Below the pieces are notes generated by a model. It was not told the DNA's origin. It ran no database searches and was given only the letters and a program-made list of their open reading frames with translations. From positions 1 through 46,814 of the forward strand of contig QIGL01000025.1 in NCBI GenBank assembly GCA_003228915.1: a DNA stretch of 46,814 bases. Reading direction: 5' to 3'. Shown one piece after another: positions 266 to 40,978 of the stretch; position 1 is the first letter of the stretch; the number at the start of each line of letters is the position of its first letter. The DNA is from Acidiferrobacteraceae bacterium. GTDB lineage: Bacteria; Pseudomonadota; Gammaproteobacteria; Acidiferrobacterales; SZUA-150. A program made the translations under genes and the position numbers.

Positions 266-310
266 AATGAGACTTATTTGTCGTCGACATTTTTTATTAG
301 ACCCCTTTTA
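266..310 (-). repeat. RAYT-associated repeat, copy 2 (overlaps immunity gene stop)
   Basis: The second copy of the repeat at 59-90. The 17 bases AATGAGACTTATTTGTC are identical (266-282), followed after a longer spacer by the same CCCCTTTTATT end. The last codons and TAA of the 80-residue gene (297-539) are formed by this repeat, so the gene's 3' end was probably redefined by its insertion. Confidence 0.5.
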
Positions 311-539
311 TTATTTTTTGTTTGGCTAATTCCACGCCTGTCAAAAAGACATCAAGATCAATTTTCCTCAATACCATATCTTCATCAACATTCTCACCAG
401 ATAACTCTATTTTTAGATTATCCACTCCTTCATCTTGATTTAGCAGTGCTATGAATTTTCCTTTATAAAATATCTCAACAGTTAGTTTTTCATAATCGCT
501 AGCACTAACTAATAAAATTTCAAAGTCTGATTCGTTCAT
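297..539 (-). CDS. Small acidic protein, candidate immunity protein of the Rhs toxin
   Basis: An 80-residue, acidic, soluble protein with no signal peptide or membrane segment. Its ATG (539-537) overlaps the TAA stop of the upstream Rhs-core gene by one base, so the two are probably translationally coupled. I do not recognise the family. Position directly behind an Rhs protein with a variable C-terminal tip, small size and cytosolic character fit an immunity protein that neutralises that tip; this is inference from context. The last codons (IIKGV then stop) lie in a repeat, so the C-terminus may be truncated or replaced compared with homologues. No regulatory site of its own is visible. Confidence 0.6.
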   Translation of the reverse strand: MNESDFEILLVSASDYEKLTVEIFYKGKFIALLNQDEGVDNLKIELSGENVDEDMVLRKIDLDVFLTGVELAKQKIIKGV

Positions 540-1495
540 TATGGCTCCAAAAATGCATCCATGCTGCCATCGCCTTTGAATCTAACGCCTCTGCCAGTAT
601 TGTTATCAAAAATATCTTTACCTCCAAAGCGGTTGGGTTTAGATGTTTGACGGCCGCTCTTTAATATGCCTTCCAAAATATCTTGTCCTTGTTGATTTCT
701 TGCAGCAGCACTGCCAGTGGATTTAGGGAAGACACTTCCTTGCCTGTCTCCATGTTTTTGTAGAGCTCGACCAGCTTTTGTAAGCCCATTTCGATCGAGT
801 TGCTGTCCTGCCCTTAATAGGTCGTCGATTCCATTTCGTATGCCTCTTCTAAATAATCCCCCGCCAAATCTGATTGCACTCCTAGCTGCAAGGACGCCTG
901 AACCTCCACCATAAATCAGAGTTGCGCCTCCAGCATAAACCGTTAATCCAACTCCTAATGCTTGAGTTCCCGGTGCGTTCATTCGTACAGCTTGATCAAG
1001 AGACACACCGCGTGTATTTGCATAGAGCAGTAATAATGCCGCCTCCCCATCCGGATCCACATACTTATAGGGATTATTATTGGCATAGGCATAACGATTA
1101 AACGTCTGGGGATTGCCTATCTTGAATCCCTGGGGATCAATGGCCATGAAACGACCCAACTGCGGGTCATAAAAACGGGCACCCATATAAAGCAGACCGG
1201 TTTCTTTATCTTTCACATGACCGGAAAAACTGCGACTATTATTGTCCGCGGCCGTTTCATTGCGCAGGGTTTCACCAAAGGGCCGGTATTGTTCCCGCCA
1301 GATGACTGTGCCACTTGCATCAGTCGCGGCCACCGGGGATCCCAGGGCGTCATTATGATAATAAGTGATGGTGGTTGCGGCCTGGCTGGTGGCTGAGAAC
1401 AACAAAACAGCGAGGGGTAATACCACGCTACCCAGTAGTCTCAGGCAGCGACGGCCAGATGTCTTTTGATAAATACTTGCGTTAAAAATACTCAT
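539..1495 (-). CDS. Secreted Rhs-core protein with variable C-terminal tip (candidate toxin)
   Basis: A 318-residue protein. A signal peptide occupies about residues 1-39, with a hydrophobic core ending SATSQA. The Rhs-associated core follows at about 40-150, with YYHNDALGSP, REQYRPFGE, GLLYMGARFYDPQLGRF and NPYKYVDPDG. This is the conserved junction that normally precedes a polymorphic toxin tip. The remaining ~168 residues are the variable tip; it contains GRALQKHG and ends DGSMDAFLEP. I recall such endings in Rhs/CDI tips of the small RNase type, but cannot name the class. Unlike a full Rhs protein it lacks the YD-repeat shell, which is on the large upstream gene. Its ATG overlaps the upstream gene's stop (ATGA), and its own stop overlaps the next gene's start. 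Toxin activity is inferred, not shown. Confidence 0.75.
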   Translation of the reverse strand: MSIFNASIYQKTSGRRCLRLLGSVVLPLAVLLFSATSQAATTITYYHNDALGSPVAATDASGTVIWREQYRPFGETLRNETAADNNSRSFSGHVKDKETGLLYMGARFYDPQLGRFMAIDPQGFKIGNPQTFNRYAYANNNPYKYVDPDGEAALLLLYANTRGVSLDQAVRMNAPGTQALGVGLTVYAGGATLIYGGGSGVLAARSAIRFGGGLFRRGIRNGIDDLLRAGQQLDRNGLTKAGRALQKHGDRQGSVFPKSTGSAAARNQQGQDILEGILKSGRQTSKPNRFGGKDIFDNNTGRGVRFKGDGSMDAFLEP

Positions 1496-2080
1496 GGTAA
1501 TGTCCTGGTTTTGGTTATTTCAATATTACCGGCGGTATCGGTAGCAAAATATTCCAGTGTCATTGTTTCTGAGGTGGGAAAAGTTACCAGAAATAAATTT
1601 TGATATGGCTGCCAGCTGGCAGTATTGGCAGCGCCTACGATATTAATGATGTTACCCAATAACCTGAAGCTAATACTTGCTGGCTCGTCTGCGGTTAATA
1701 TGACCAGCGAAATGGTTTGCCCCAGGAAGGGTATATTCGCTGAAAACACCTGGTCTGTTGTAATTGGTGGCGTGGTATCACCAGAGGTTGGTACGTCCTG
1801 CACAATTACGTTCACCAGATCCGATGCCGTGCCACCATCATTATCCGTGACGGTTAACTGGAATGTTAATGTCGTACGGTCACGTTAGGCGCAGTAAAGC
1901 TGGCACTGGCAGTATTGGCTCCGGTTAGTGTTACCACCGGGCCAGTTGTCTGGGTCCAGGCGTAACTAACAATGGTGCCATCGGTATCAGAGCCACTACC
2001 GGTAAGGGTCACCGGTGTAGCTTCATTGACGGTTTGATCGGGGCCAGCATTGGCAGTGGGGATAACGTTGACGTTATTAA
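1492..2080 (-). pseudogene. Frameshifted 3' end of the giant Rhs/PKD gene
   Basis: After the 2778-codon frame goes wrong near 2080, a second frame continues the same repeat (NVNVIPTANAGPDQTVNE, then YAWTQTTGP) to about 1876. A third frame then continues TTLTFQLTVTDNDGGTAS and runs to the stop at 1492. Each jump equals one missing base. With two added bases, 1492-10345 becomes exactly 2952 codons. The last ~95 residues form a separate domain ending YFATDTAGNIE, like the bacterial Ig-like or chitobiase C-terminal domains that follow PKD arrays. The stop overlaps the start of the Rhs-core gene (ATGA). These may be real mutations or sequencing or assembly errors. The ATG at 1815 is not likely to be a true start. 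Confidence 0.8.
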
Positions 2081-5000
2081 TATGCCTACGCCGCCTTCAT
2101 TGTCAGTTACCGTCAACAGGAAGCCTAGCGGGGTGGTTGTGGTTACCGCTGGCGAAGTGAAGCTGGCAGTGGCCGTGTTGGCACCAGTAAGCGTGACGGC
2201 AGGACCCGTTGTTTGTGTCCAGAGATAAGTTAGTACGCCTGCTTCTGGATCGGTGGCTGACCCTGTTAACGTAACATTGTCCTGCTCATTAACAACCTGG
2301 TCTGCCCCGGCGTTCACTTGTGGGGGCTGATTGCCAAGCACCGTGACACTAATGTTACCGGTGACAGTCAGGCCAGCACTATCTGTAATCGTAATGTCAA
2401 ATGTGAATACTGTGTCTGATGCTAAAACCGGGGCCGTAAAGCTTGCCAGTGCGGTATTGCTACCCGCGAGAACAACTACCGGTCCGGCACTTTGGGTCCA
2501 GACATAGGAGACAATGGTGCCATCAGGATCAATAGAACTGGTTGCATCCAGTGTTACCGTGGCGCCCCGGGTCGCTGGGTTTGGGCTGGCTGTCAAAGTA
2601 ATAGTCACTGGCTGGGTAATTTCAATCACAACCTGGTCAGTGGCAGTCAGGCCACTATCATCGGTGACCGTCAGTTCAAAGGTCAGCGTTCCGGGTGTTG
2701 CCGGTGAGGTAAATGACGCTGTCGGAGTCAATTGATCCGATATAAGTATCACTGGCGCACCACTTAGCTGTACCCAGTTATACTGCACAATGGTGCCGTC
2801 AGGGTCGGTGCTTGCAGCACCATCCAGAACAAGACCTGACTGGTTGGTGCTATAGGTCATGTCCGGGCCGGCATTGGCCACAGGGGGCTGTGTTATTTCC
2901 GATGTAGTTATCTGAACCAGGTCAGAGGCCGCAAGATTATTGTTATCCCAAACCGTTAAACTAAAGACAAAAGTGGTGCCCACGGTAACATCAGGCATAG
3001 TGAATGTTGGGGTGGCAGTGGTGCTCCCGGTTAACGTTACAAAGGGTCCAGATTCCTGTAACCACTCATAGCGTCTGATGGTGCCATCGGTATCAGAAGA
3101 TGCCGTGCCATCCAGTGCGACCAGTGCGAATGCTGGTTGAGCTTGATCAGGTCCGGCATTGGCAACTGGTGTACCAGGAACGACTACTACATTGATGATG
3201 ACTTGATCGGTACCAATTGCTCCTTCGTCATCAGTGACTTTTAGTTCAATCGTGATGGGAATATTTGCAATTACTGCAGGCGCTGCAAAAGTTGGATACA
3301 TGCTATTTGCATTAATGATGTCTACTGGCGGACCTGCGACCTGGGTCCATGAATAGGAAATGACGAAACCGTCTTCGTCTGTAGAGGCGCTACCATCAAG
3401 GTAAACAATCGTACCTTCATTTACGGTTTGATCAGGACCTGCATTTGCTACCGGTAGAATCACATCCAGGACATAAACGGAAGTCGTAACTCTGGCCCGT
3501 AGACCGTCAACATCAAACACCAGCAACTCAAAGCGTAACAGTGTGTCGCTTGTAACTGTTGGCGTAGTAAAAGTAGGTGTTGCAGTATCGGCACCCGTTA
3601 GCACAACCGCTGGGCCTTCAATCTGGGTCCACTGGTAAGTAGGAATAAAACCTTCTGGATCGTAAGACTTGCTTCCGTCCAGGCTGGCAGCAGTTTCTTC
3701 GGGGATATACTGCGGTAATCCTACAAATGCAACTGGTGCACCTGGGACGACCCAATAGTGACGGCCAAAGTAAGTGATATAGTCTGGTGACGGATAGGGT
3801 CTTGTATCAAAACGGTTCCAACCAATAGCAGTGTTACCATTATTCTGTAAAACGGCGGTAGGGAAGAACCTACCATCTCCTTCATTGGAGATTAATTCCG
3901 CCCCCTGCCAGCCCAGTCCGTCTCGATAACGAGCGGCATAAATCTCTCTTTTTTCGTCAGTTTGAACAGTAGGTAATTGTTCCCAAGCAATGATGGCATT
4001 GCCAATGTCGTCCATTGCAACTGATCGTGCACCACCGTTATCATTCTGATAAAACAGATTTTTGTTTAATGGCGGGCCTGCGTCTAATTTGACAGGCTCT
4101 TCCCATCCGGTAGCAGGATCAAATCTGGCCGCCCAGGTAAAATATACAGGTAAGCCGCCAGTTAAAATTGATATCCAGCCATCATTACCATCTAGACCTC
4201 CATCTCCTGATAACGCTTGACCCCAGACAGCAATAGCTTTGCCATTGGGAGACATCGCTAAATCGCCTCCTGATACCATCGCTACTGGTGTATTGGAGAG
4301 TCGACGAGGTCTTTGCCAGCCTGTATTGTTATCTAATCGGGCGGCATAAACTGCAGTATCAAAAAGGTCAAATACATTACCATTGTAAGGGAGATCAATT
4401 GCACTAGCAGAGTAAGGAATACTTGACCAAATGGCCATTCCATTTCCATTGTCATCAAGCGCCAAGAATGGACCGCCAATGTAGTCCGCAAAGGAGTCAA
4501 AGGCTTTTTCGCCAATTATTTTTGGAGCAGACCAACCGGTGAAATAATCACGTTGCGCTGTGTTTATGTCGTTTGTAATCTGACCAGAAGTAGGGCTTCC
4601 GACCCATACCATTACAACATTACCAACTTGATCTATTTTAACCGCAGTATCGCGCAAGTGCAGGTTACCAGACCAGGCCTCAGAGTTCGCAACTAGAGTT
4701 GGCAGTTCCCATCCATTGACTGGATCATAAAAAACGGTATACAACTCACGAGAAACAAGACTTGGCAATGCCCCTGTAACAGTAGTTTTAATCCATGTCA
4801 CGATGGCATGACCAAAATCATTAATTGCGACGTGCACGTTGCTGCTTGAGGTAGCAGATATTTCTACAGGCGTTGACCAGCCTGTTAATGCCCGGTATTG
4901 ACTTGCCATCAAGAATGAATTATTCCCGGCGTCAAGTGCACTCCATACAACAATTCCATCACCATTTCTATTAAAGGCAGAATCCATGATCTTGATTGAT

Positions 5001-8000
5001 TTATATTCACCAGAAATTGGCAATGTTTCACCCCAGCTGCCAGTTTGGCTAAACTGTTTAATTAATAATTCAATGCCGTAGTTCTTGTTTTTGATAGTTT
5101 TTAAGAAAATATTTCCGATTTTGTCTGTTTTTAAAGGTTTTTGAGGGGGCGCATTTTCTAACAGCAACGTATTTTCACCCCAAGCACTTTCTCCTGGTAT
5201 GGCATGTGCTTCCAGTGATTCAGCAGTTTCGCCACCTGCATTTTCAGAAGTGACAACAAAATAATACTTTGTTCCGATAGGTAGCCCAGTATGAATATAG
5301 GGCCTAGTAACATTCGTTACTTTTGTGCCAGTTGTTTTGGTTACGCCTGGGGTGATACTCCAGTAAATATTATAAGTAACTGCTACCGGTAATGGTGACC
5401 AGCCAATGGTAATGCTGTTCGCAGTCGGTTTAGCGGTAACCGAAATAGGTGCCGGAATATCTGTGACGGTGATAATGACATTATCAGTAGATGTGCTGCC
5501 TGCAGTCAGCATAAACTCTAACGTAGTATCACTGGCGACTTCTGGTGCGATAAAACTTGGAGAACTCGTAGTTGCATTGATAAGCACAACAGTTGGGCCA
5601 CCGATTTGTATCCAATCGTAACTCGTGACGGTACCCAGGGCATCACTTGTTGCGCCGCCATACAAAAGAACATCAGAGGTCTCTATCACTTTCTGGTCAG
5701 GTCCGGCATCAGCAGTCAGTATGCTTTTCACTGTTATGCTGACTGTATCAACAGCGGTTGCGAAATCATTGTCTGTGACTGTTAGCTGAAAAGTCAGCAC
5801 TTCCGATGTAGTTGTGAGCGGTGCAGTGAAACTTGGTTGTGCGATATTTGGATTAAAAGATGCTCGCACCCCTGATAGCTGCTCCCAAAAATAATTCGTT
5901 ATAGTGCCATCGCTGTCTGTTGAAGTTGACCCATCCAGAGTCACGAGACTGCTTTCAGCTACCGTTTGGTCAGGGCCAGCGTTTGCAACAGGTAGTGCTG
6001 TTAGTTTATATATCGTAATAACAACTGTGTCGGTCGCAGTTTGCCCGAAACTGTCTGTTACTGCTAATTCAATGAGAGCAGTGGTTGGACCTGGAACTGT
6101 CGGTGCTGTGAAATCGGGACTGGAGGTTGTAGCATTATTGATTACAATTGACGGTCCACTCAATTTTACCCAGGAGTAAGAGATAGTCGGATCCTCAGCA
6201 TCTGAAGAGCCTGACCCATCAAGCGTTACAAAATCACCCGCAGTAATTGTTTGATCCGCACCTGCATTTGCAACAGGTCTATTGTCGATGTTTAGCACTA
6301 TAAGAGCGACTGAATCTGTGGCAGTAGCTCCCAGGGTATCTTCTACAGTTACATCGAAGATAAATGTCGTTTTGGCATCGACGTATGGTGTGGTAATACT
6401 AAGTGTTGGGCCTGAGACAGGGGCGGCCAATAAAGGCGGTCCACTAGTCTGGGTCCATTCTATTGAGACAAGTTCGCCGTCGGGATCAGAGGCAACTGCG
6501 TTAAAGGTAACACTTGTTTTTTCGTTTTTAGTTTGGTCTGCACCTGCTGATACTGTTGGTAATTCATTGACGATATTGGCTACAGCGATCAATTTATTAT
6601 GCAGGTAGGCATATTCTTTTATGGGGCCGCCGAATTCACCATATTCACCTAAAAGTTGACCATTTTTTGCATAGGTATAATAAACACCAGCACCGGATCT
6701 GTTGGCATAAACCCGGCGATTATTACCGTCATAACCATAAAAGAAATTATCGCCTGCATCAATCTGTCGTAGGCTACTTGCATGATCATAAACATAAGTA
6801 TGTTTGCTATCGCCAGTAATATTTCCGTAATTATCGTAACTGAAAGTCGATATTCGATCACCGGAGGTACTGGTTAATTTATTTGTTGCATCATAGTTAT
6901 ATCCAATATTTAAACCAGTACCAGTAAAATTTTTGGCCGCAATGTTACTTGTAGCATCATAAGTAATAGTGCCTGTGCCCCATTCACCCGTAGCAACACT
7001 CAGCCTGTCCAGGATATCATAGTCTAAAGTTCGGTTATATCCAGAATTGACGGTATCAAGGATCGAGCTAATATTTCCTCTGCCATCATAACTGTAAGTA
7101 AGATCAGTCACCGGGCCACCAGTAGAAACAACATTAATATTCTTCACCCATTGTCGGATGTCTTGTGTCAGGTTACTTTCCGCTCCGTTTGCATAGACCA
7201 TTCTTTTTGGTAGGCCATTGGGATAATACGAAACACTGTTGACGAAGGGCGCAACTTGAGTGGGTCGTCCAAGGCTGTCTGGCGCATAGGAAACTATTTG
7301 TGTGCTTGGGTATTTGATGCTGCTTAGATTGTCAAGCGCATCATAGGTACGAGTAAAAGTGTAACTTGGTCCATTTAAAATAAAAATATTTTCATTTAGA
7401 ATATTATCATTCTGGTCATAACCATAACTCCAGTTCACATTATATCTATCGACTGAAGTTGTATTGCCATTCTTGTCGTACTTAAAAGTTACGTCTTCTG
7501 TACCAATAGGATAATCGACCAGAACAAGCCTATTAGAAAAATCATAATTGTATTTTGTAACAGGCATATTAGCGCCAACCTGTCGCTGAACGATATTGCC
7601 GGTGCCATCTACTGCAAAAGTCGTTACGCCAGTTTCAGGGTCTTGCGTGGATTTTATAAATGGCCTGGTAACATAATAGGTATTGGTGCGGGTGAACCCA
7701 CCCTGGGTTACATCCAGAACGAACCCGCGCACATCGCGCGTAAAGATTGTGCTTGCTTCACCAGCAGGTTCTATACGCATTAAAACCCTCTTGTTGTCAT
7801 CCCCAGGGTCACCATAAGAACGATACGTATAAACAGTTGTAAAATTTCTTTCATTAAGAATGCTGACTTTATTGCCAGGTAAATATGAATATGTGCGAGA
7901 GGTACTATCTGGATGGGTAATGGTGTTTATACGATCCAGTACATCGTAAGTGTTTGTAGTGCCATCGACATTCAGAGGTGGACTGCTACTCCAGGCTGGA

Positions 8001-10345
8001 CATGCACCATCGATTAAATACGAAGTAAATGTATTCCGACCCAAATTGTCGTATCGAGTGACCTGGCTAATAGTGGTGCCAGCAGTTGCATCGGTAGTCG
8101 TGACACAAATTGGCCGCCTGAACCCGTCATAATTAGTTACCTGTTGATAGTTTCCCCTGGTTACTTTTTGTGTGTAATTGAGATTATCGCGACTAATCGA
8201 TACATCACTACTCGCCACTCGCGGCATATCAATAAAGGTCAGCCTGTTGAGGCTGTCGTAATCATATTTCGTTGTAATGCCCCGGCCATTGGTTTCACTG
8301 GCCACGGTGCCGGTATCAAATACAGTGCGGGAGATCAAAATATCATTTTCGGGCAGAAGATCAACGGGCTGAATTTCCTGACGAGGAATGCCGCGGTAAT
8401 AATCAAGATATGTCCAAGTAATACCGCGAGCATCATACCTGGTATTTCGGTCTCCCGAGAGGGTGTAAGTATAAGTTTCAGGAACGCCATAGGCTTGATA
8501 AGTTTTCAAATTACCTGTAGCAAAGTCGTAAAAACGATAAGTACTCAGCGCCATGTCAGGATTAGTAGTATTCGGAACATTTTCATTGACCAACTGATCC
8601 AGAAAGAACACTTGACCGGGAGCTAGAATATTTGGATACCATTCCAAGCCAGCGGTACGAACTGCCGCCTGGGGTGTGCCTGCCTGACCTGTTTCTACCT
8701 GGTAAGTTGGTCGTATGCTAAGCCCTGAAGCCCCATAGGTATACTGCGTTTTGTAAATGGTGTTGTCGCGAGTTATTGTTTTAGAGAGCATAATTGGATT
8801 TGTAACATTAACATCAAAATAATCAAACGCAGTTGAATAATGTTTTTCACTGGAAATCTTGCCCCTATTGATCCATTCATAGGATTCAGTTTCAACAGTA
8901 CTATAAACATTTGCAGAAATTTCTTTTTGTGTTATTTTTTTAACCAGCCTGCCTGTTTTCCATAATTCTCGTTTAACTCCCAGCCCTACGCCTAACTCAA
9001 TTTGCCGCTGAATGCCGTAATGTTTGTAAATAGTTCTGCCGCCTGGAAAATTGACAGTTGTCTGGTCATTCATGGTGACGCCTGTTTCGATTGTGTTTTC
9101 TGTTCCTGGTGCATAGGTGTAAGACCATGTGCCTGGTTCAATATTGCGGCCACCCTGCGTTTTAGTGGCTATCGCTACTGAGAAATAACGCTCTGCAGGA
9201 AAGCTGGGCGACAAAAGAACAGGACCGGCGAAATCTACGTGCTTGTATGTGTATGTAGCGGTAGCACCATAGGGATAGGTAACCGATTGAAGTGCGCCAG
9301 GCGCGACTGCGGCCCCGGAAGGATTATAAGCATATTGCCATTTCAGACCGTCTGGGCGCACGACTTCTGTCAAGACTTTATTGCCCGTACCCATATTCGT
9401 GTAGTTGTAAGTCCATGTCTGTGGTACTTTATTTGGCTGACTTAAATCTGTAGCGGTAATCGAACTCAGATAACCACTGGTATATGTAAAGATAACTTCA
9501 CGACCATCACTGGCTGTGACTCTATTAATTAAGGCGCGCGATCCTTTGCTGCCTGAATAGGTAATCGTAAGGTAATTCCCATTGCCATCTTCTATTCTGG
9601 TGGGGTACCAGGCACGGTTAACACGAGCAGTGTAAGTGACCTCATCATCGAGGGCAGTTACTAAATGATCCATGGTGTATATAAGGCCATCGGGCGAATA
9701 AACTAATAACCCTTTGCTTGCGCCAGAACAATCTGCTCTCCACATACCCTGCGTGACAAATGTTTTTAACCAAGACTGGTTAGCATCGCTTACGGCAAGC
9801 ACTTCCTGGCCGCCATCTGGCCGTTCCAATACGGCGTCATCTAAAGTGGAATTGACTGAGGTGGTGTAACTCGCGTCGTCGCAAATGCCATCAGTTGTTG
9901 TATTGGGATTTTCTGCTTTGACAATACGGCCAAAGTTTACCGTCCAGCCCAGACCAGTTGTACCTTCTGGTGCAAAATAGTTCGGGAATGGCGGGGCTGA
10001 ATAAATGTTTGCACGTGTAAGCCAAATATTGCTGGTGTAACTACGTCGAATCTTGATATCAAGACCACCATTACCTGGTACGACTAAATCAATATTTGAA
10101 AATCTAAGCGATCCACTAAAAGGGTCTATATTTTCTGCACCAGTAGATACTTCGTCGCGCCATTTATTAAAACCCGGCTCTGAATAAAAATCAGGCATAA
10201 CAGATTCTGCATCGGCATAAATAGCTGCAGAAAAAAATATCGACAGGATACTGGCACAGATACCCAGTGACAGAATTTTTCTGAAGTAAAAAGACGGAAT
10301 GTTTACTGTGAATAATTTTGCAGGTTTGCTCATAAGTCTATCCAT
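2009..10345 (-). CDS. Giant secreted Rhs/YD-repeat protein with PKD/REJ, FN3 and propeller-like domains (3' frameshifted)
   Basis: 2778 residues as read; ~2951 if two frameshifts near 2080 and 1876 are repaired. A signal peptide lies at about 1-46. Next comes a DUF6531-like start (ENIDPFSGSLRF, then IKIRRSYTS), then Rhs/YD repeats to about 1255 (many TYDALDN, YDYDSLNRL and YGYDGNNRR motifs). Four PKD/REJ-type repeats (ANAGPDQTV...WTQ.SGP) fall at ~1262-1625 and one FN3 domain at ~1625-1715. A ~480-residue region with recurring W/GW motifs (AVWSALD, TGWSTPVEI) follows, perhaps a propeller, then six more repeats to ~2775. An eleventh repeat lies past the first frameshift. Residues after ~2760 are out of frame. 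ATG 10345 has no clear Shine-Dalgarno; ATG 10333 is an alternative. Likely an exported or surface protein encapsulating or displaying the downstream Rhs-core protein; that role is inferred. Confidence 0.85.
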   Translation of the reverse strand: MDRLMSKPAKLFTVNIPSFYFRKILSLGICASILSIFFSAAIYADAESVMPDFYSEPGFNKWRDEVSTGAENIDPFSGSLRFSNIDLVVPGNGGLDIKIRRSYTSNIWLTRANIYSAPPFPNYFAPEGTTGLGWTVNFGRIVKAENPNTTTDGICDDASYTTSVNSTLDDAVLERPDGGQEVLAVSDANQSWLKTFVTQGMWRADCSGASKGLLVYSPDGLIYTMDHLVTALDDEVTYTARVNRAWYPTRIEDGNGNYLTITYSGSKGSRALINRVTASDGREVIFTYTSGYLSSITATDLSQPNKVPQTWTYNYTNMGTGNKVLTEVVRPDGLKWQYAYNPSGAAVAPGALQSVTYPYGATATYTYKHVDFAGPVLLSPSFPAERYFSVAIATKTQGGRNIEPGTWSYTYAPGTENTIETGVTMNDQTTVNFPGGRTIYKHYGIQRQIELGVGLGVKRELWKTGRLVKKITQKEISANVYSTVETESYEWINRGKISSEKHYSTAFDYFDVNVTNPIMLSKTITRDNTIYKTQYTYGASGLSIRPTYQVETGQAGTPQAAVRTAGLEWYPNILAPGQVFFLDQLVNENVPNTTNPDMALSTYRFYDFATGNLKTYQAYGVPETYTYTLSGDRNTRYDARGITWTYLDYYRGIPRQEIQPVDLLPENDILISRTVFDTGTVASETNGRGITTKYDYDSLNRLTFIDMPRVASSDVSISRDNLNYTQKVTRGNYQQVTNYDGFRRPICVTTTDATAGTTISQVTRYDNLGRNTFTSYLIDGACPAWSSSPPLNVDGTTNTYDVLDRINTITHPDSTSRTYSYLPGNKVSILNERNFTTVYTYRSYGDPGDDNKRVLMRIEPAGEASTIFTRDVRGFVLDVTQGGFTRTNTYYVTRPFIKSTQDPETGVTTFAVDGTGNIVQRQVGANMPVTKYNYDFSNRLVLVDYPIGTEDVTFKYDKNGNTTSVDRYNVNWSYGYDQNDNILNENIFILNGPSYTFTRTYDALDNLSSIKYPSTQIVSYAPDSLGRPTQVAPFVNSVSYYPNGLPKRMVYANGAESNLTQDIRQWVKNINVVSTGGPVTDLTYSYDGRGNISSILDTVNSGYNRTLDYDILDRLSVATGEWGTGTITYDATSNIAAKNFTGTGLNIGYNYDATNKLTSTSGDRISTFSYDNYGNITGDSKHTYVYDHASSLRQIDAGDNFFYGYDGNNRRVYANRSGAGVYYTYAKNGQLLGEYGEFGGPIKEYAYLHNKLIAVANIVNELPTVSAGADQTKNEKTSVTFNAVASDPDGELVSIEWTQTSGPPLLAAPVSGPTLSITTPYVDAKTTFIFDVTVEDTLGATATDSVALIVLNIDNRPVANAGADQTITAGDFVTLDGSGSSDAEDPTISYSWVKLSGPSIVINNATTSSPDFTAPTVPGPTTALIELAVTDSFGQTATDTVVITIYKLTALPVANAGPDQTVAESSLVTLDGSTSTDSDGTITNYFWEQLSGVRASFNPNIAQPSFTAPLTTTSEVLTFQLTVTDNDFATAVDTVSITVKSILTADAGPDQKVIETSDVLLYGGATSDALGTVTSYDWIQIGGPTVVLINATTSSPSFIAPEVASDTTLEFMLTAGSTSTDNVIITVTDIPAPISVTAKPTANSITIGWSPLPVAVTYNIYWSITPGVTKTTGTKVTNVTRPYIHTGLPIGTKYYFVVTSENAGGETAESLEAHAIPGESAWGENTLLLENAPPQKPLKTDKIGNIFLKTIKNKNYGIELLIKQFSQTGSWGETLPISGEYKSIKIMDSAFNRNGDGIVVWSALDAGNNSFLMASQYRALTGWSTPVEISATSSSNVHVAINDFGHAIVTWIKTTVTGALPSLVSRELYTVFYDPVNGWELPTLVANSEAWSGNLHLRDTAVKIDQVGNVVMVWVGSPTSGQITNDINTAQRDYFTGWSAPKIIGEKAFDSFADYIGGPFLALDDNGNGMAIWSSIPYSASAIDLPYNGNVFDLFDTAVYAARLDNNTGWQRPRRLSNTPVAMVSGGDLAMSPNGKAIAVWGQALSGDGGLDGNDGWISILTGGLPVYFTWAARFDPATGWEEPVKLDAGPPLNKNLFYQNDNGGARSVAMDDIGNAIIAWEQLPTVQTDEKREIYAARYRDGLGWQGAELISNEGDGRFFPTAVLQNNGNTAIGWNRFDTRPYPSPDYITYFGRHYWVVPGAPVAFVGLPQYIPEETAASLDGSKSYDPEGFIPTYQWTQIEGPAVVLTGADTATPTFTTPTVTSDTLLRFELLVFDVDGLRARVTTSVYVLDVILPVANAGPDQTVNEGTIVYLDGSASTDEDGFVISYSWTQVAGPPVDIINANSMYPTFAAPAVIANIPITIELKVTDDEGAIGTDQVIINVVVVPGTPVANAGPDQAQPAFALVALDGTASSDTDGTIRRYEWLQESGPFVTLTGSTTATPTFTMPDVTVGTTFVFSLTVWDNNNLAASDLVQITTSEITQPPVANAGPDMTYSTNQSGLVLDGAASTDPDGTIVQYNWVQLSGAPVILISDQLTPTASFTSPATPGTLTFELTVTDDSGLTATDQVVIEITQPVTITLTASPNPATRGATVTLDATSSIDPDGTIVSYVWTQSAGPVVVLAGSNTALASFTAPVLASDTVFTFDITITDSAGLTVTGNISVTVLGNQPPQVNAGADQVVNEQDNVTLTGSATDPEAGVLTYLWTQTTGPAVTLTGANTATASFTSPAVTTTTPLGFLLTVTDNEGGVGILITSTLSPLPMLAPIKPSMKLHR

Positions 10346-31255: not shown

Positions 31256-32122
31256 TTAGTCTAGATCTAACTGCTCCGACTTATTTATATGTTTTTTTAC
31301 CCGCTTAATTTCGTGTTTGACAACAAGTTTGCCGCGACTATATTTTTGTTCACTATATAAATCGACAATCAACATATCTCCTTTTGAAAATGGTTCACCG
31401 CTATTAATCCGGGCTAAAAAAACTTCATCATCAATTGAAGCGCTAAAGCGACTTTGGCCATCATAAAATTCCCATTTATTTCCATCTCTAAATTTTATAG
31501 ATTCAATATACAGAGCTTTTTCTACCGTGCTTTCAATTACTGTTTGGTCGCGAGATATATCTGTAAAACAATCACGATCCTCTCGAACAACTGTTACAAC
31601 ATCTTTCAAATCCTTATCTTCTATTTCAATTTCAGTTATACCCGCCTGGTCCATTGGTTTCTGTATTAATTGCTCTAAAGCATCGCCGGCTTTCGGATCG
31701 TTGATAAGCACTGTGATGTTTTGGGTAAAATACTCAACATCCCCATTAATATTTGTCAGGCCAAAATTATCGTTATCCTGATTTTTTACAATCGATTCTG
31801 GTGGTTTTCCTTTAAGAAATTTCCATGCCCTAATACTGTCTTTAAGTATTCCCCATATCTCGCTCGCTGTTACAGGAGTAAGTAATGCTGCCTGCCCAAT
31901 AGCAGCTGCATATACAAGGAACTCGAATGACATGGAACCAGTTGGCGATACACTGCTAACCTTTGTCTCAACCTTAGCGCCAGCTCCGAATGAGGCGCGA
32001 GACATTGCGCCAACAAAATCTCCAAAAGCCATCATTGCTGTGGCGGCAGCGTAGTACCCCAATTCGCCATCGTCAGTTTCACCTCCACGGTAATGAAGCA
32101 CGAGATGTCCTTTATCTGCCAT
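31256..32122 (-). CDS. Uncharacterised island cargo protein
   Basis: 288 residues; no function assigned. The start is ATG 32122, behind GGGAG five bases upstream (an upstream GTG at 32128 sits in the ribosome-binding site). Residues ~5-75 read HLVLHYRGGETDDGELGYYA and then SSVSPTGSMSFEFLV. A weakly hydrophobic helix (AAAIGQAALLTPV) follows, then a charged middle with GDVEYFTQNITVLIND. The ~80-residue C-terminal part is beta-rich (KWEFYDGQSRFSASIDDEVF, then KGDMLIVDLYSEQ), ending very basic and then acidic. The layout recalls DUF7946-like hypothetical proteins, from memory and unverified. As the only cargo of a tRNA island it could be a defence or fitness gene; that is inference. Confidence 0.75.
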   Translation of the reverse strand: MADKGHLVLHYRGGETDDGELGYYAAATAMMAFGDFVGAMSRASFGAGAKVETKVSSVSPTGSMSFEFLVYAAAIGQAALLTPVTASEIWGILKDSIRAWKFLKGKPPESIVKNQDNDNFGLTNINGDVEYFTQNITVLINDPKAGDALEQLIQKPMDQAGITEIEIEDKDLKDVVTVVREDRDCFTDISRDQTVIESTVEKALYIESIKFRDGNKWEFYDGQSRFSASIDDEVFLARINSGEPFSKGDMLIVDLYSEQKYSRGKLVVKHEIKRVKKHINKSEQLDLD

Positions 32123-32238
32123 AGTCACTCCCTTTAAGAAGAACGGAAATATTAATGAAAAACACGCCTACTCACTATAACTATTTGTGGCAACAGTGTG
32201 ACACAAAGGTAGCGAATGGCGCTATTACTCTTTATTCC

Positions 32239-32255
32239 TAGTCTTTCCTGATCTT
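32239..32255 (+). repeat. 17-bp direct repeat, right copy
   Basis: TAGTCTTTCCTGATCTT, nine bases before the right attachment repeat. Same orientation as 30839-30855. Possibly integrase arm-type sites or a trace of an earlier integration. Confidence 0.75.
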
Positions 32256-32264
32256 ACACTTTTA

Positions 32265-32310
32265 CTTCGGGAGGCAGGAGCCGAGAGTTCGAATCTCTCC
32301 ACCCCGACCA
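32265..32310 (+). repeat. attR-type site (duplicate of tRNA-Pro 3' half)
   Basis: A perfect 46-bp copy of 30718-30763, from the anticodon loop to CCA, without the 5' half of a tRNA. It lies 10 bases from the end of the polysaccharide locus. Confidence 0.8.
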
Positions 32311-32319
32311 TTAATTTAC

Positions 32320-33870
32320 CTAAGATCTGGTTTTATCTTTTTTGAAAATCAGCAATTCATCTCCGAACTGATTTTTCAACCTCTTTGCAGGCGGGCTGCC
32401 TACCAGGTTAATGATTTCCTTTTCCTGCTCTTTGTATTTTTTCTTGATACTAATAGCGATATAATCAAAATTCCTTCCTTGATTATTTTTTAATATTTTG
32501 TACACGTCTTCCCGTTCGTATGGTCGTACATTTACCCATGCGTCTACATCAACACGCTTGTACGGATTTCGGCCTGCGTAGTAAGTTATTGCTATGTCGG
32601 TACTTAATAATTTCTCATCTGATTTAATTTGTTGTTTTATCCAGAGGCCGCCATCTTTGTAATGGTTCTTACCAGTAAATGTAGCCAGGCTCGGTAGCGA
32701 CGCCACGATAATTAAAAGAACAGTGACAGGAAAAAACCACCGGATGACAACATTGTTGTTTCTGCTATCTTTCCAGTCCTGGTACATATTTGAAAGAATA
32801 AAGGGCACTGGCAGCAAAACGGTTAAGCTGAGCGCCAGTGGGAAGCGACCGGTAATGAAATAATATTTTAGCAGTGCGCCAGTTAAAATTAGTAATTGGA
32901 TAATAATAAGTATTATCCATGCATTCCTGACCCTGTCTTCACTAAATATTACATACTTGCGCCAACTATAAATTAATATAAATGTGTAAGCCAAAGTAAT
33001 ACTTTGAATCACTTCACTAAAAAGAATGATTATTAATGTAGCAAATAAGGCAACAGGGGCATAACTTTCAGAATATTGCGTCAACAAAGTTCGCATCTGT
33101 TCTAGTCGCACTGAGTACTCAGCAATAGAACCTGCCATAAATCTATTTGCAAGATCGAATATACCCTCTATTCCTGAGTAATTAGCATTATTCAGACGAC
33201 TCCCCGCAAACCACCATGCCAATAATAAAAATGTGGCAAGTAATACAAGACCGAACGTTGCGCCGATCTTGATGCGTTTTTTTCTTGAGTCTGCAAATAC
33301 AAACCAGGAAATAAAAGGCAGACTAATTAATATAGCAATCGCTTCAATTCGGAATAATGCAGCAATAACAAGCAATATAGACCAGAGGACAGGTAAGTAC
33401 CATTCCGGCTTGACAAGATGCCTGAAAAAAACAAACAGGCTCAGCATATAAAATGCCAGGTACCCGAAGTCGCGACTAATAAAAGAACGATAACGATTAA
33501 TACCTGAAAATAAAAGTATAACAATTACAGCAAATATAATGACCCGTTGATCCCCGCCAAGTAACCTGACAGTAGAAATAAAACTTATAGTAATAATTAT
33601 TGCCAGGATAATGTTTAACAGGTATGCAATTACCTCGCTAGACAAGCCCGATACATTACTCAAACCAGCTAACATGAATGAGTAAAATGGCCAACGATAA
33701 ATATTGAACGCATTTGAATAGTTGCCATCCTGTATTGTCTCGGAAACCAGGATATATAAAAAACCATCGTTATTAATCACAGGGTCAATATAAATCGACC
33801 AGAATGAAAATAGCAGGCTAATACCTCCTGCGATTATTAGGATGTTTCGGTTAGTTATTTGATGATTCAT
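32320..33870 (-). CDS. Multi-spanning membrane glycosyltransferase (GT-C fold, PMT/ArnT-like)
   Basis: 516 residues with about 10-12 membrane helices. The first periplasmic loop has INNDGFLYI, an acidic residue placed as in GT-C polyprenyl-phosphate-sugar transferases, and a second loop begins YRSFISRDFGYLAFYML. The C-terminal ~110 residues form a soluble domain with DIAITYYAGRNPYKRVDVDAW. Such proteins transfer a sugar from a lipid carrier to a glycan or protein on the outer face of the inner membrane. It is the last gene of the polysaccharide operon. Specific donor and acceptor cannot be read. The class call is moderate, from topology and the DG/RD loop motifs. Confidence 0.75.
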   Translation of the reverse strand: MNHQITNRNILIIAGGISLLFSFWSIYIDPVINNDGFLYILVSETIQDGNYSNAFNIYRWPFYSFMLAGLSNVSGLSSEVIAYLLNIILAIIITISFISTVRLLGGDQRVIIFAVIVILLFSGINRYRSFISRDFGYLAFYMLSLFVFFRHLVKPEWYLPVLWSILLVIAALFRIEAIAILISLPFISWFVFADSRKKRIKIGATFGLVLLATFLLLAWWFAGSRLNNANYSGIEGIFDLANRFMAGSIAEYSVRLEQMRTLLTQYSESYAPVALFATLIIILFSEVIQSITLAYTFILIYSWRKYVIFSEDRVRNAWIILIIIQLLILTGALLKYYFITGRFPLALSLTVLLPVPFILSNMYQDWKDSRNNNVVIRWFFPVTVLLIIVASLPSLATFTGKNHYKDGGLWIKQQIKSDEKLLSTDIAITYYAGRNPYKRVDVDAWVNVRPYEREDVYKILKNNQGRNFDYIAISIKKKYKEQEKEIINLVGSPPAKRLKNQFGDELLIFKKDKTRS

Positions 33871-33913
33871 TAATATAATTTTACTTTGTATACTGCTGGC
33901 TCATAATGCTACC

Positions 33914-35113
33914 TCATAGTTGTTTTCTTTTTTCTATGAGGCATTTATATTCCTCAACAAGTAGAGCATTTACAATATTTGCATCATATTCCTGTAAACA
34001 GCGTAACCGTGCCGCTTCTCCTAGTCGTGTGCGAAGGGCCTGATCTTGAATCAGCTTGCTTAATCCTTTTTCAAGTTCTCGAGAATTAGCGCGCGGAACC
34101 AGTAAACCCGTTACACCATCAACTACGGCATCGACTAACCCGGGAATGCATGTACCCAGTGTTGGTATTCCCATGGCAGCTGCTTCAATCACTACTGTAC
34201 CAAACCCTTCTCTATGACTTGGTAAACAGAGAATATCGGATATTGCCATATAAGATTCTGGGTCATCCCGATAACCCAGAGCATGCAAACCCGGTCTTTG
34301 TTTTATCGCCTTCTGCACAGCTGTATCACCACTCACTTCCACTGGTCCCACAAGAAGAAGTTCCACAGCAATCCCCCGGTCTCGCAAGGCACCAAACGCC
34401 TCCATTAACTCGATGATACCCTTGTCCCGGGTGATTCGCCCGATGAAAATCAAAACAACCGAATGTGGCTCCAGTCCTATTGAATTTCGCAGTAATTTTT
34501 TTTTATTATTATCGATACAATCTCGCCTAAAGTGATCAGTGTCTACACCTGCCAGGGATCCTGCGCCTAAAACACTTATGTTATTCGCGCTAGTTATCTT
34601 CTCGCTAACTAAAAAATCCATCTGGCTCTTACTATCTGCATAACATCTTGTATTTAGTTTCGCGATAATGCGATCAGAGTTTTTTACAATTTTCCTGCTC
34701 ATGCCATGCATAGTCACCCATCGTTGGCCCGTGAATGTGTGTAATCGAATTTTTATCCCAGCCATCATGCCCGCAATTACCGCTAGCAGTCCTGCCTTGG
34801 GTGTTGTTGTATGTACAATCTTGAACTGGTTTTTTTTGAATATCAAAAATAGATGAAATATCGCGATAAGGTCCCTTATCGGCGCGGGTTCTCGCTCTAT
34901 ACCAACAACAATGTGATTCAAACGATCTCCGAATTCCAATTGTGACAACTGCGTGCCTTCTGATGAAATAAGCGTGATGTCCATACCAGTGGAATGCAGA
35001 TATTTAATTTGCTGTTTTAGGTTGGTTACAAGGAAGAAAGGAACTGATGTGACTATGGCAATTTTAGTGTTTTTAATTGCAATATTACCGGATTCATTTT
35101 TCGAATGTATCAT
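33914..35113 (-). CDS. GT4-family glycosyltransferase
   Basis: 399 residues, two Rossmann domains (GT-B). The N-terminal half is KIAIVTSVPFFLVTNLKQQI ... TTPKAGLLAVIAG. The C-terminal half is VVLIFIGRITRDKGIIELMEAFGALRDRG and HREGFGTVVIEAAAMGIP, with the EX7E pair that binds the nucleotide-sugar donor. The N-terminal pattern (VPFFL..Q, HTTTPKAG) is close to PglA/WbpY-type enzymes that extend undecaprenyl-linked glycans. A cytoplasmic, membrane-associated transferase of the locus; sugar specificity is unknown. Confidence 0.88.
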   Translation of the reverse strand: MIHSKNESGNIAIKNTKIAIVTSVPFFLVTNLKQQIKYLHSTGMDITLISSEGTQLSQLEFGDRLNHIVVGIEREPAPIRDLIAIFHLFLIFKKNQFKIVHTTTPKAGLLAVIAGMMAGIKIRLHTFTGQRWVTMHGMSRKIVKNSDRIIAKLNTRCYADSKSQMDFLVSEKITSANNISVLGAGSLAGVDTDHFRRDCIDNNKKKLLRNSIGLEPHSVVLIFIGRITRDKGIIELMEAFGALRDRGIAVELLLVGPVEVSGDTAVQKAIKQRPGLHALGYRDDPESYMAISDILCLPSHREGFGTVVIEAAAMGIPTLGTCIPGLVDAVVDGVTGLLVPRANSRELEKGLSKLIQDQALRTRLGEAARLRCLQEYDANIVNALLVEEYKCLIEKRKQL

Positions 35114-35150
35114 ACTGCTATAATAAACGTTATCGAGAAATTGGACGTGC

Positions 35151-36113
35151 CTAATTACCAGGTTTTTTAATATTCATGCTCATCCATTCTTTTACAAGCA
35201 CTTCAAGACCCTCTTCCATGCTAACTTTGTGTCTATACTCCAGTTCTTTCTCTATCTTGCTTATGTTATAGGAAACTCTTGTTGTAAGACCGTCTATACG
35301 ATGCTTGCCAAGAGGATATCCAGGCACCAAACCAAATAATAATGCTGCTATCCTGAATGGTAGTATCGGTAATCTGATAAAATTGTTTTTTCTTTCAAGT
35401 CCCCTGCTAATTACTTCAATAAATTCTTCCATAGTGCGCCGATCACATACATTATAGACTTTACTCTGATTGTTGCCGGCCTTGGTACATAACATCAGCG
35501 CGTGTATCAGGTTATCCACATGGATATAATTAGTAGAGGCGCCTGCTGCACCAATGTAAAAAAAAACTCCCTTGTCAATATAGGATATCAGCCTGTATAT
35601 ATCACGGTCGATTGCATTCACCCCCATCACTTTACACGGCCTCATAATAGTGTATCTAAACCCACCATCTCGAGAGGATTCCTTGATAATATGCTCTGCC
35701 TCTGTTTTTGTTCGCTCGTATAAATTCTCTGGTTTTTCCTTCGAAGATTCATCAATCACGCCCCTCGCAAGCGAACCATAAACACCCACACTGCTAAGAT
35801 AGACAAAGTGGTCAACCTTTCCCCGGGCACAGGATGCAAGATTTTTCGTGCCTTGTACGTTCACTTCATTCATTTTAGCTTCGTTTCTTGTTTCAGAAGC
35901 ACAGTGAAACAATACGTTAACTTCCTGGACAAATTTTTCCAGACAACGATTTTTGCCGCTTAAATCACCTGCAACTACGCTGAGATTATTCGATTTTACA
36001 GATATACGACTTTCTTCACGGGTAAGTGCTGTGACCGTATGACCTTCTTCCAAACATTTACTGAGGAGCTTGTGTCCTATACTGCCCGATGCTCCTGTAA
36101 TCCCGATTCTCAT
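35151..36113 (-). CDS. NAD(P)-dependent sugar epimerase/dehydratase (extended SDR)
   Basis: 320 residues. GITGASGSIGHKLL carries the GxxGxxG dinucleotide loop, YLSSVGVYGSL the serine region and YERTKTEAEHI the catalytic YxxxK. The C-terminal substrate domain includes NYIHVDNLIHAL and VYNVCDRRTMEEFI. Full-length for the family. It probably reduces or epimerises a nucleotide-sugar or lipid-linked sugar of this locus; the exact reaction is open. It lies between the FkbM methyltransferase and the GT4 gene, all on one strand with short spacers. Confidence 0.88.
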   Translation of the reverse strand: MRIGITGASGSIGHKLLSKCLEEGHTVTALTREESRISVKSNNLSVVAGDLSGKNRCLEKFVQEVNVLFHCASETRNEAKMNEVNVQGTKNLASCARGKVDHFVYLSSVGVYGSLARGVIDESSKEKPENLYERTKTEAEHIIKESSRDGGFRYTIMRPCKVMGVNAIDRDIYRLISYIDKGVFFYIGAAGASTNYIHVDNLIHALMLCTKAGNNQSKVYNVCDRRTMEEFIEVISRGLERKNNFIRLPILPFRIAALLFGLVPGYPLGKHRIDGLTTRVSYNISKIEKELEYRHKVSMEEGLEVLVKEWMSMNIKKPGN

Positions 36114-36137
36114 ATGTGATGGCTGTTTTTTCTAATG

Positions 36138-37061
36138 CTAGGACTTTTGTAGACCAATTAACTGTATCCCTAGCAATTTCAGAACTCTGTTGGCAACGCG
36201 AATGATAAAAGTAGCAATTCCTCTGCGCCTTAAAAGTGATTTGTGAAAACTCTCAACTGACTCTATGTCCTCTTCTTCAAGAAATCTTTTGAATTGCTTG
36301 ACACATACCGGAAGCAGATCAATATGTCCATAAAGTGCCACAATAGCAATATACTTAAGTGCTTTGCTGCGGGCATGCTCCGTTGAGAGGTTATTTAGCA
36401 TGCTTCCAAAAACTTCTGGTGTGCGCAGAAATAATCCATCTCCAAAAATAACCTGGCCAAACAGGGTAAAATTGTTTCGCTCCCATCTGCATATATTCAC
36501 AAAATCAAAGAATTCAAAATTCTTTTTTGCCAGGTATGAACACACATCACCAAAAAGTGACTGATTTTTATATAGCTGTAAAAACTCTACTTCTATTTCC
36601 AGGCCGATAAACGGGCTATTTAGAATTGAATCTCCTCCTTTCAGGATATCCAACTCAGTTCCTTGTGTGTCAATCTTGATAAAATCATATTCAACCCCTC
36701 TTTCAAGTAAACATTTATCAAGAGTTGTAACTTTAATTGGTTCTGATTTTATTACTTCGAATCGTTTCGAATCAGGAAACCTGGACACAAACTCAAAATG
36801 TGGATTTAACAGCGACGATACTCTTGGCTCCTGACACAAGTTCAGGCTGGCTGTTTCTTCTTTCTCACCCAGGCCCATCGAAATTACTTCTTCGACGTGA
36901 GCCAAAGATTCAATCTTGTTTCTTGATCTCTCATCTGGCTCGAAAAGTAATGACCTGATATTTGAATCAATTGAGCGCCAACGAGGCTCAAGACCTCCTC
37001 TTGCTCCTACGTCTATTAACCCAATTTTATTTTTCCCAAGAAACGCTTTTAGCGCTTTCAT
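36138..37061 (-). CDS. FkbM-family methyltransferase
   Basis: 307 residues. GLIDVGARGGLEPRW is the SAM-binding opening of this subgroup, LLFEPDERSRNKIESL the acidic strand, and TTLDKCLLERGVEYDFIKIDTQGTELDILKGG (the FkbM signature, ending DTQGTE) the core motif. The C-terminal ~120 residues are an extra helical part. Such enzymes O-methylate sugars in polysaccharides. A second methyltransferase of another type is at 43094-43981, so the glycan may carry more than one methyl group. Confidence 0.88.
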   Translation of the reverse strand: MKALKAFLGKNKIGLIDVGARGGLEPRWRSIDSNIRSLLFEPDERSRNKIESLAHVEEVISMGLGEKEETASLNLCQEPRVSSLLNPHFEFVSRFPDSKRFEVIKSEPIKVTTLDKCLLERGVEYDFIKIDTQGTELDILKGGDSILNSPFIGLEIEVEFLQLYKNQSLFGDVCSYLAKKNFEFFDFVNICRWERNNFTLFGQVIFGDGLFLRTPEVFGSMLNNLSTEHARSKALKYIAIVALYGHIDLLPVCVKQFKRFLEEEDIESVESFHKSLLRRRGIATFIIRVANRVLKLLGIQLIGLQKS

Positions 37062-37198
37062 CGATATTCCTTTTGTCTAAAGACTCTCAACTTGTTAGTA
37101 AATGACGACAGCAACATAAATAATTATTATCCGGATTATGAAACCTCCCCTGGATAATAGCCCTATACTTGCTGACCTTGTTAAATACCAAAGAATTG

Positions 37199-38137
37199 TT
37201 ATTCATTTATAATATCAAAAAGGGATCTTCCAGACATCAATATAACTAAACCTCTTAAAAGACCAATTAGCTGTCCAGTAGAAAATATTATTGAATTTGG
37301 CTTAAGCGTTAATATACCCAATGCCGTTCTATATCCTATTTGACAAACTGACATCCAGTAAAAAGAAGCGAGTGACAGTTCCTTGTGTAAACTTACAAAG
37401 TACATTCGCCAGAGCACCGTATTTTTTCCTCGATAAATGTTTTTAAAATTAAAATACTGTTCGATAGGAATATCATCATGAAAAACCCTGGCTTGCTTGC
37501 ATACATACATAGGATATTTCTTGCTTACCGGGTAGCTAAATATAATATCCTCACATATCGCCCATTTGCTTTTTATCGCCAGGTGTGAAAATTCTTTTAT
37601 TATTTTCGCGCGCCAAACAGTAGCTCCCCCACACAACCAACTGGTTTTAACGCTTTGGTTATTTGCAGAGACTGGAACATTGTACCCTGAATTGAGAATT
37701 GCCCCGGGCTGATCAGATCCCATTCCACTAACTCTATGAAATAAACTATTTCTATATTCTGGATTATTGGTTATGGTGAATCCAATCCCGGCGGTTTCTT
37801 TTTCCTTAAGATTCCAGCAATTAATCATTCTTTCTATAGCATCACTCTCAAATACAATATCATCATCTATATATGCCACTAAAAGAAATTTTTCCCCAAC
37901 AAGCTCAAGACCATGGTTTCGTTGCGCTATTTGTCCTGTTATATCCGTATCTCGATATATTATGTTTAGTTTATCGAGATATTTTGAAACTACATTTTTA
38001 CTTTCTCCCCCGCTATCTATAATAATCAACACGCCTGGCTGCTTTACTTGGCTCACCATGCTTTCAAGCAGATTTTTTATTTTATGAGGACGTCCCTTAG
38101 TAGGGATTAAAATGGCCAATTCGCTTTCTAAATACAT
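37199..38137 (-). CDS. GT2-family glycosyltransferase
   Basis: 312 residues, GT-A fold. LAILIPTKGRPHKIKNLLES is the donor-binding opening, and AYIDDDIVFESDAIERM carries the metal-binding DxD. KTSWLCGGATVWRA and an acidic CEDIIFSYPVSKKY follow, in place of the usual ED motif. The hydrophobic C-terminal helix region suggests membrane association. Substrates unknown. About 55 bases from the upstream 566-residue gene. Confidence 0.87.
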   Translation of the reverse strand: MYLESELAILIPTKGRPHKIKNLLESMVSQVKQPGVLIIIDSGGESKNVVSKYLDKLNIIYRDTDITGQIAQRNHGLELVGEKFLLVAYIDDDIVFESDAIERMINCWNLKEKETAGIGFTITNNPEYRNSLFHRVSGMGSDQPGAILNSGYNVPVSANNQSVKTSWLCGGATVWRAKIIKEFSHLAIKSKWAICEDIIFSYPVSKKYPMYVCKQARVFHDDIPIEQYFNFKNIYRGKNTVLWRMYFVSLHKELSLASFYWMSVCQIGYRTALGILTLKPNSIIFSTGQLIGLLRGLVILMSGRSLFDIINE

Positions 38138-38192
38138 CTGTCCTGCTTTTCATAGAATTTCACGACAAAGTCCTCCCCGGTTGCAATAATGT

Positions 38193-40567: not shown

Positions 40568-40978
40568 CTTCCTTTTAACTTACCAATTACAGTTATTGGC
40601 GACCCGTCTGAATTTATATAGCGATACGGCAGTGCTATGACCTGATCAAGCACTATGTCACTGGGTATGCCTGCAAGAGATAGATCTTCCATAATGATAA
40701 TCCCGTTTCCGAGGAATTCTTTATGAGCCTCCCTGCCGGTAGTTCTATGCGTAAGACTTGATATAGAAATAGTATCCATTCCGATTGCCCTGAATGACGG
40801 GAAAGATGTCTGAAAAAATCTGAATAAGTCAGGAGAAAATCCAGGAGCATGTTTCCAGTATTTCTCCCTGCTTCTGAAAGCTTCCATCCCTGTTCGTATT
40901 AATACTATGTCTGCATCATTTATATCAGGTGTAATTGATTTTTCAATGATTTTACTATCTATAATCGTATCATCGGTT
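40564..40978 (-). pseudogene. C-terminal part of a cyclase-family hydrolase, separated by a frameshift
   Basis: Translation in this frame gives ITPDINDADIVLIRTGMEAF, then SFPSFRAIGMDTISISSLTH, EFLGNGIIIMEDLSLAGIPS and ITVIGKLKGR, the standard second half of cyclase/kynurenine-formamidase-like proteins. The first half, with the metal site, is in another frame at the end of the gene upstream (40970-42094). The match resumes where the first frame stops (TGA at ~40972), after a net +1 base near 40975-40995. An ATG at 40887 is present in the fragment but is not the natural start. Real mutation and sequencing error cannot be told apart. Confidence 0.85.

Follow-up and report, generated by a model that had tools for sequence, protein, structure and literature searches.

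In the usual view, each rearrangement hotspot (Rhs) protein is one capsule that loads itself, and a change of payload requires DNA recombination at the 3' end of its gene. A locus in a 46,814-nucleotide stretch of DNA from an Acidiferrobacteraceae bacterium (the window, which is the entire contig C35 of a 2.66-Mb metagenome-assembled genome, MAG) raises the question of whether capsule and toxin can be two proteins. A giant gene encodes an Rhs/YD shell and a separate gene encodes the Rhs core and toxin, each product with its own export signal; a preliminary description of the window had pointed this out, and we saw the same in the window and in other genomes. The two-gene form of Rhs toxin is real and recurrent, and it is probably ancient. 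We read it as a two-chain, Sec-exported Rhs polymorphic toxin with swappable cartridges that would close a shared shell outside the cytoplasm, and we give this reading a probability of roughly 0.72. The features of the locus, with open reading frame abbreviated to ORF, are as follows.

297..539, (-) strand: ORF of 80 residues, probable immunity gene, assigned by position (codons 300-539; stop codon 297-299 inferred from reading).
539..1495, (-) strand: stand-alone core/toxin gene, 318 residues (ORF list; TIGR03696, Rhs core, E 1.1e-24).
542..736, (-) strand: C-terminal toxin domain, residues 254-318, probably a colicin D-like RNase (AlphaFold and structural matches).
1043..1369, (-) strand: Rhs core, with the final cocoon strands, the plug and the two DPxG aspartates, D120 and D147 (TIGR03696 match and alignment; fits the cocoon end of solved structures).
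1379..1495, (-) strand: signal peptide of the core protein, residues 1-39 (sequence, and passed a heuristic signal test; cut SQA/A inferred by eye).
1492..2069, (-) strand: rest of the extension, in two other frames, with the last PKD and then an OmpL47-like domain (1.6e-5, below cut-off).
2009..10345, (-) strand: giant gene, main open frame, 2778 residues (ORF list).
2009..6580, (-) strand: extension, with PKD repeats, fn3, a stretch labelled propeller-like in the preliminary description, and PKD (PF22352 1.6e-146, fn3 1.1e-6).
6581..10213, (-) strand: Rhs/YD shell without core, up to residue 1255 (sequence and shell profile; the homologous L070 shell was modelled).
10214..10345, (-) strand: shell signal peptide, residues 1-44 (sequence; cut by eye).

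The giant protein matched a shell profile, which was seeded with the window shell itself, and the shell ends at residue 1255 with EYAYLHNKLIAV. Pfam and NCBIfam scans of the 2778-residue protein found no Rhs core. PKD in the giant protein amounts to 10 K319L-like stretches (PF22352), accompanied by one fn3 domain. The 318-residue protein begins with a hydrophobic signal peptide that leads directly into ITYYHNDALGSP, and it matched Pfam RHS (1.4e-9) in addition to TIGR03696. The start of the 80-residue ORF sits within the stop codon of the core gene, a usual place for an immunity gene; the ORF matched no family in Pfam or NCBIfam.

We searched 96 related genomes for homologues of the core. The closest were stand-alone and lay near core-less shells (two loci in G002, and G084 and G075); in G075 the shell, which lies in several frames, has no PKD and stops cleanly 11 nucleotides (nt) ahead of the core gene. 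Cores in G092 and G004 had no full shell alongside, and G093 carried the fused, one-gene form. A ten-core alignment used as the search seed returned at least 79 loci in named genomes, most of them from Beta- and Gammaproteobacteria. Loci were classified by profile models of shell and core, and 83 deduplicated loci, the window included, were read. A stand-alone core with a signal-peptide-like start was present at 75 of these 83 loci, and a shell ORF lay directly upstream on the same strand at 57 of the 75, both counted among the matches listed; because the genome scan was seeded with split cores, 75/83 is not a prevalence. The remaining eight loci, not counted as stand-alone, are five fused ones (L062, L122, L125, L136 and L137) and three left unclassified (L131, L135 and L143). 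Shell and core genes were spaced by -65 to +66 nt in 51 of the 57 pairs, with an overlap of exactly 4 nt in 16. The junction count used one strand per locus and left out the L057 shell-core pair found by the profile models; duplicate loci (L071, L076, L089, L098 and L100) were dropped from the junction counts, the split/fused label counts and the within-locus identities. Of 339 genomes drawn evenly from the phylum, 18 had a core at E <= 1e-20. All six of those that were read, with the window's genome and Xanthomonadaceae (a family placed by the XVIPCD domain) among them, showed a stand-alone core after a signal-peptide-like stretch. A plasmid search with the core gave 410 records, none above 60% identity. 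The preliminary description would have been refuted had no other genome shown the split; other genomes do show it.

We next consider the signal peptides. The heuristic test was passed by 97/104 unfused core genes, as compared with 29/2019 internal M/V/L positions of shell ORFs and 0/5 fused proteins; the test set comprised 109 core genes, with the five duplicate loci still included. The predicted cut fell -1 to 11 residues from the core in 88 of the 97 signal-positive proteins. The occurrence of stand-alone signal-peptide cores with shells upstream is beyond chance.

One explanation of the locus would be an error of sequencing or gene calling, or an Rhs gene that broke recently in this MAG. 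Two frame breaks lie close to the 3' end of the giant gene, within the last PKD repeats (1875-2110 and 1492-1878): the main frame stops at 2009, homologous PKD sequence goes on in a second frame (about 1875-2069), and a third frame (about 1495-1878) carries the last part of the homologous extension sequence, where the shells of L057 and L133 end similarly to the OmpL47-like ending of the window. The ATGA overlap between giant gene and core gene reported in the preliminary description exists, but it is made only by the third frame (ORF 1492-1815) and not by the 2778-residue frame. The MAG contig end and masked or broken frames at L055, L058 and L075 also fit an artefact. By contrast, the split recurs with intact frames and precise junctions in isolates (for example Undibacterium, Acidovorax, Pseudomonas and Duganella), and also in G1030, G986 and G490, leaving an artefact very improbable. 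Given this recurrence we rejected a recently broken gene for the family, although not for the window's two frame breaks, for which the same-genus genome (G001) gave no match to compare.

The preliminary description had also proposed that an insertion split one Rhs gene in two. We rejected an insertion of PKD domains as the origin of the split, because 24 of the 57 pairs have no insertion, their shells ending no more than 15 residues from the junction; the other 33 shells are extended. Decoration also occurs on the core side. At seven loci with a clean shell end (L072, L092, L102, L103, L106, L111 and L128) the core protein has extra domains, Ig-like by reading, between signal peptide and core; core proteins with domains added after the signal peptide come from Duganella, Comamonas, Curvibacter and others. 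The junction is thus a site of domain addition on either side of the break. In a tree of the cores, built on 111 columns and with many forks poorly supported, the split/fused label needs 4 changes, as compared with 24.4 when shuffled, and a tree constrained to group all 92 split cores has a marginally better fit than the unconstrained one (approximately unbiased test, p-AU 0.563). A single split clade fits the tree; it is therefore probable that the split is old and that the PKD array was added afterwards.

In one-chain Rhs and toxin complex (Tc) proteins the shell encloses the unfolded toxin and the core cleaves itself. Aligned to solved Rhs proteins, the core profile coincides exactly with the ~105 residues that lead up to the self-cleavage site (1048-1151 of 1152 in RhsP, 8h8a; 2082-2190 of 2191 in TcdB2-TccC3, 4o9x). 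We modelled the L070 shell of Undibacterium jejuense (1133 residues; predicted local distance difference test score, pLDDT, 86.6), whose final strand, 1125-1132, lies at the stop codon. The model aligned to residues 47-2071 of the TcdB2-TccC3 chain (4o9x) over 1026 residues with a root-mean-square deviation of 3.2, and reached Z 26 to Rhs cores. Shell and core matches on the cocoon leave a gap of about ten residues, and in five fused relatives the two matches are about 4-14 residues apart. All 91 aligned cores, the window's included, matched TIGR03696, and both DPxG self-cleavage aspartates are invariant in 91/91. Judged by these alignments, shell and core are complementary pieces of a TcB-TcC-type cocoon.

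The C termini of the cores matched a range of toxin families: Ntox10, Ntox47, Ntox8, Ntox24, HNH, EndoU, colicin D, colicin E5, ribonuclease and M91. The toxin domain of the window had no Pfam match. Its AlphaFold model, with pLDDT ~90 from residue 261 on, resembles Pseudomonas CdiA-CT (6d7y, Z 7.1) and colicin D (1tfk, Z 6.5), both modest Z scores, and it is probably a colicin D-like RNase. L081 (4805-10891) has one shell followed by five signal-peptide cores in a row with five different toxins, and L105 (9947-11416) has a stand-alone core with a HINT-looking insert between core and toxin. Tandem cores had a median identity of 90% within a locus (25 pairs), as compared with 55% between loci (598 pairs), and the C-terminal parts of tandem cartridges within a locus were 20% alike. 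The dN/dS of tandem cores was 0.11 (25 pairs, 12 loci; dS 0.11-1.66). On these substitution rates, the stand-alone cores are maintained proteins under purifying selection; the core seems tied to the shell of its own locus and the toxin free to change.

These patterns bear on two further explanations. The first is that the cores are ordinary orphan Rhs cassettes: toxin/immunity modules that are silent, serve as a stock for recombination into a shell gene and do nothing as proteins of their own. The tandem arrays, in which the toxin changes from copy to copy, look like such cassettes, and residual shell tails precede cassettes at L109 and L059; the orphan cdiA-CT of EC93 is reported to be without translation start signals or signal sequence (PMC3150448). 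The stand-alone cores, however, have starts and signal peptides (97/104), the first cassette after the shell is itself unfused, so that there is no fused gene to recombine into (57/75 loci), and dN/dS between tandem copies is near 0.1. We consider this explanation decidedly unlikely. The second is that the core protein works as a freely secreted toxin and has no more need of the shell, the shell and PKD array being used otherwise, for example in adhesion. Separate signal peptides, about ten cores with no nearby shell and the C-terminal extension of 33 of 57 shells are all in keeping with a free toxin. Against it stand the self-cleavage aspartates kept in every aligned core, the conserved gene order, often with a 4-nt overlap, and the near-identity of cores within a locus whose toxins differ, as expected if the core must fit the local shell; we regard a free toxin as unlikely.

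Gene 1 would encode a Sec-exported hollow Rhs shell whose closing end is absent; the PKD/FN3 extension at the free C terminus of the window shell probably serves adhesion or display. Gene 2 would encode a separately Sec-exported cartridge comprising the final cocoon strands, the plug, the two aspartates and a variable antibacterial toxin, with probable immunity provided by the small ORF downstream. The two parts would pass the inner membrane separately through Sec and meet either in the periplasm or outside the cell. There the cartridge would close the shell, thread the toxin inside and cleave itself, as in one-chain Rhs and TcB-TcC, and one shell could serve several cartridges. The data show the two genes, their signal-peptide-like starts, the exact fit of the two pieces, the recurrence, the selection on the core and the range of toxins; we infer that the parts assemble non-covalently, where they do so, that the core cleaves itself, that the toxins act on bacteria, and how the parts leave through the outer membrane. 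For a broader claim the odds are in our view a little better than even: that such two-component Rhs weapons are widespread in Beta- and Gammaproteobacteria, with parts that cross by Sec separately and join non-covalently outside the cytoplasm, with one shell loadable with any resident cartridge without recombination, and with cargo and shell that never meet in the cytoplasm.

For the outer-membrane step we looked for GspD, which was above its family cut-off in 50/55 split genomes, as compared with 226/369 genomes in an even draw of the class (Fisher p 6e-6, a value that ignores genome size and kinship). By best E-values GspD was missing in G724, G738, G751 and G759. With these four and the window's genome lacking it, we rejected the type II secretion system (T2SS) as the sole exit; exit by T2SS is plausible for most hosts, but not for this MAG.

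Several observations weigh against the two-chain reading. The two frame breaks suggest that the window's giant gene may be decaying or mis-assembled in repeats, and the window's genome had no GspD above the family cut-off. Modelled by AlphaFold on its own, the window core has low confidence except in the first hairpins and in the toxin. This would be expected if the core needs the shell, and also from an alignment as thin as 30 rows. Recombination could partly explain the similarity of cores within a locus. About ten loci have a stand-alone core with no shell nearby, suggesting that some cartridges use a shell encoded far away, work by themselves or are inactive.

We compared the split form with known systems. 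In searches of the open PMC literature we found neither an Rhs protein divided at the core nor a case in which both parts carry signal peptides. One polypeptide is the usual Rhs arrangement, although not a strictly defining one, since Tc departs from it; here 57/75 loci have separate adjacent genes. A close parallel is TcB-TcC of Photorhabdus and Yersinia entomophaga, a two-chain hollow shell whose C chain has the core, self-cleavage and a variable toxin. YenB and YenC3 co-expressed in Escherichia coli as two chains are reported to form an Rhs-shell complex, and a single TcB can serve several TcC proteins, including one encoded at an orphan locus (PMC11067744). The Tc shell, however, is divided mid-way. 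TcC starts at about residue 706 of the L070 model, indicating that the break differs from that studied here, at residue 1133, where the cargo chain keeps only ~105 cocoon residues. Both chains here also have Sec-type signals (the window shell's by reading), whereas Tc subunits are reported to be without a recognisable export sequence, with B and C having to be made together in the cytoplasm (PMC3789776). One-chain Sec-type Rhs toxins and bacterial teneurin-like proteins share the signal peptide, YD shell, DPxG core and variable toxin, but they are described as one protein (PMC3482391, PMC13018210), and here there are two genes. The Rhs effectors RhsA, Tse5, Tse15 and RhsP have the same cocoon fold and are the best structural matches, but they are linked to the type VI secretion system and are one chain, whereas the proteins studied here have an N-terminal signal peptide; among the window proteins scanned, the giant protein included, there was no Pfam match to PAAR or VgrG, and the giant protein had none to a clade domain either. 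Orphan rhs-CT/rhsI modules are likewise tandem toxin cassettes with a short conserved core piece, but each cassette here has its own start and signal peptide and is under purifying selection.

A further candidate is Bcn-A of Xanthomonas perforans, described as an Rhs protein of 1398 residues plus a required 290-residue ORF4 with a signal peptide, a downstream immunity gene, and supernatant activity that is lost in a T2SS mutant (PMC7259588). ORF4 was not recognised there as an Rhs core, and the C terminus of ORFA itself was modelled as capping the barrel (PMC7259588). The published 51-residue stretch matched nothing in plasmids or in sets of 369 and 297 genomes. Split loci are found in Xanthomonadaceae, and Bcn-A is possibly a member of the split class, an unverified lead.

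The export of capsule and lid-plus-toxin as separate proteins suggests that the poison part is an exchangeable cartridge, joined to the capsule once both have been exported. If shell and cartridge do load after separate export, the choice of payload would be a matter of protein-level mixing, as for orphan TcC; such mixing would take place in many environmental bacteria with no cytoplasmic assembly step. It would also explain stand-alone signal-peptide Rhs core genes, and make cocoon closure testable with two separate proteins.

The remaining observations are minor. A second cartridge in the window's genome (L002, at the end of contig C11 of G000, 1288-1890) is cut by the contig end; its 39 core residues are 95% identical to the window's, and its toxin and downstream ORF differ. 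Fragments starting MPRKQR, presumably REP-type (repetitive extragenic palindromic) transposases, lie near L002 and at 1-300 of the window. The window also has a series of (-) strand ORFs at 31256-40887, of which the three tested (31256-32128, 32320-33870 and 38193-39893) had no Pfam match at 1e-5. At L061 (1001-7403) an orphan signal-peptide core lies beside an unrelated ORF of 1716 residues, with no shell. L135 (5636-10831) and L141 (4631-10954) have about 1450 and 1800 residues, respectively, of other sequence ahead of the core, and their shell gene lies downstream of the core, not upstream. L131 (9749-10798) and L113 (10475-10897) are fused remnants of shell tail and core with no signal peptide. 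Displaced cartridges at L109 (9297-9902), L059 and L076 are preceded by remnants of the final 60-120 residues of the shell, suggesting recombination units that span the junction. L065 is a split cartridge pair of Gammaproteobacteria type in a MAG labelled Chloroflexi, where contamination is likely. A short hydrophobic C-terminal tail, for example LSWLPAILQLLLDD, closes many shell extensions (L068, L074, L077, L080, L081, L095, L113, L116, L120, L123, L126 and L127), and the L092 core protein has a similar hydrophobic stretch after its signal peptide. By a crude score such tails were present in 5/33 extended shells, as compared with 15/485 control ORFs, and by eye in about 12/33.

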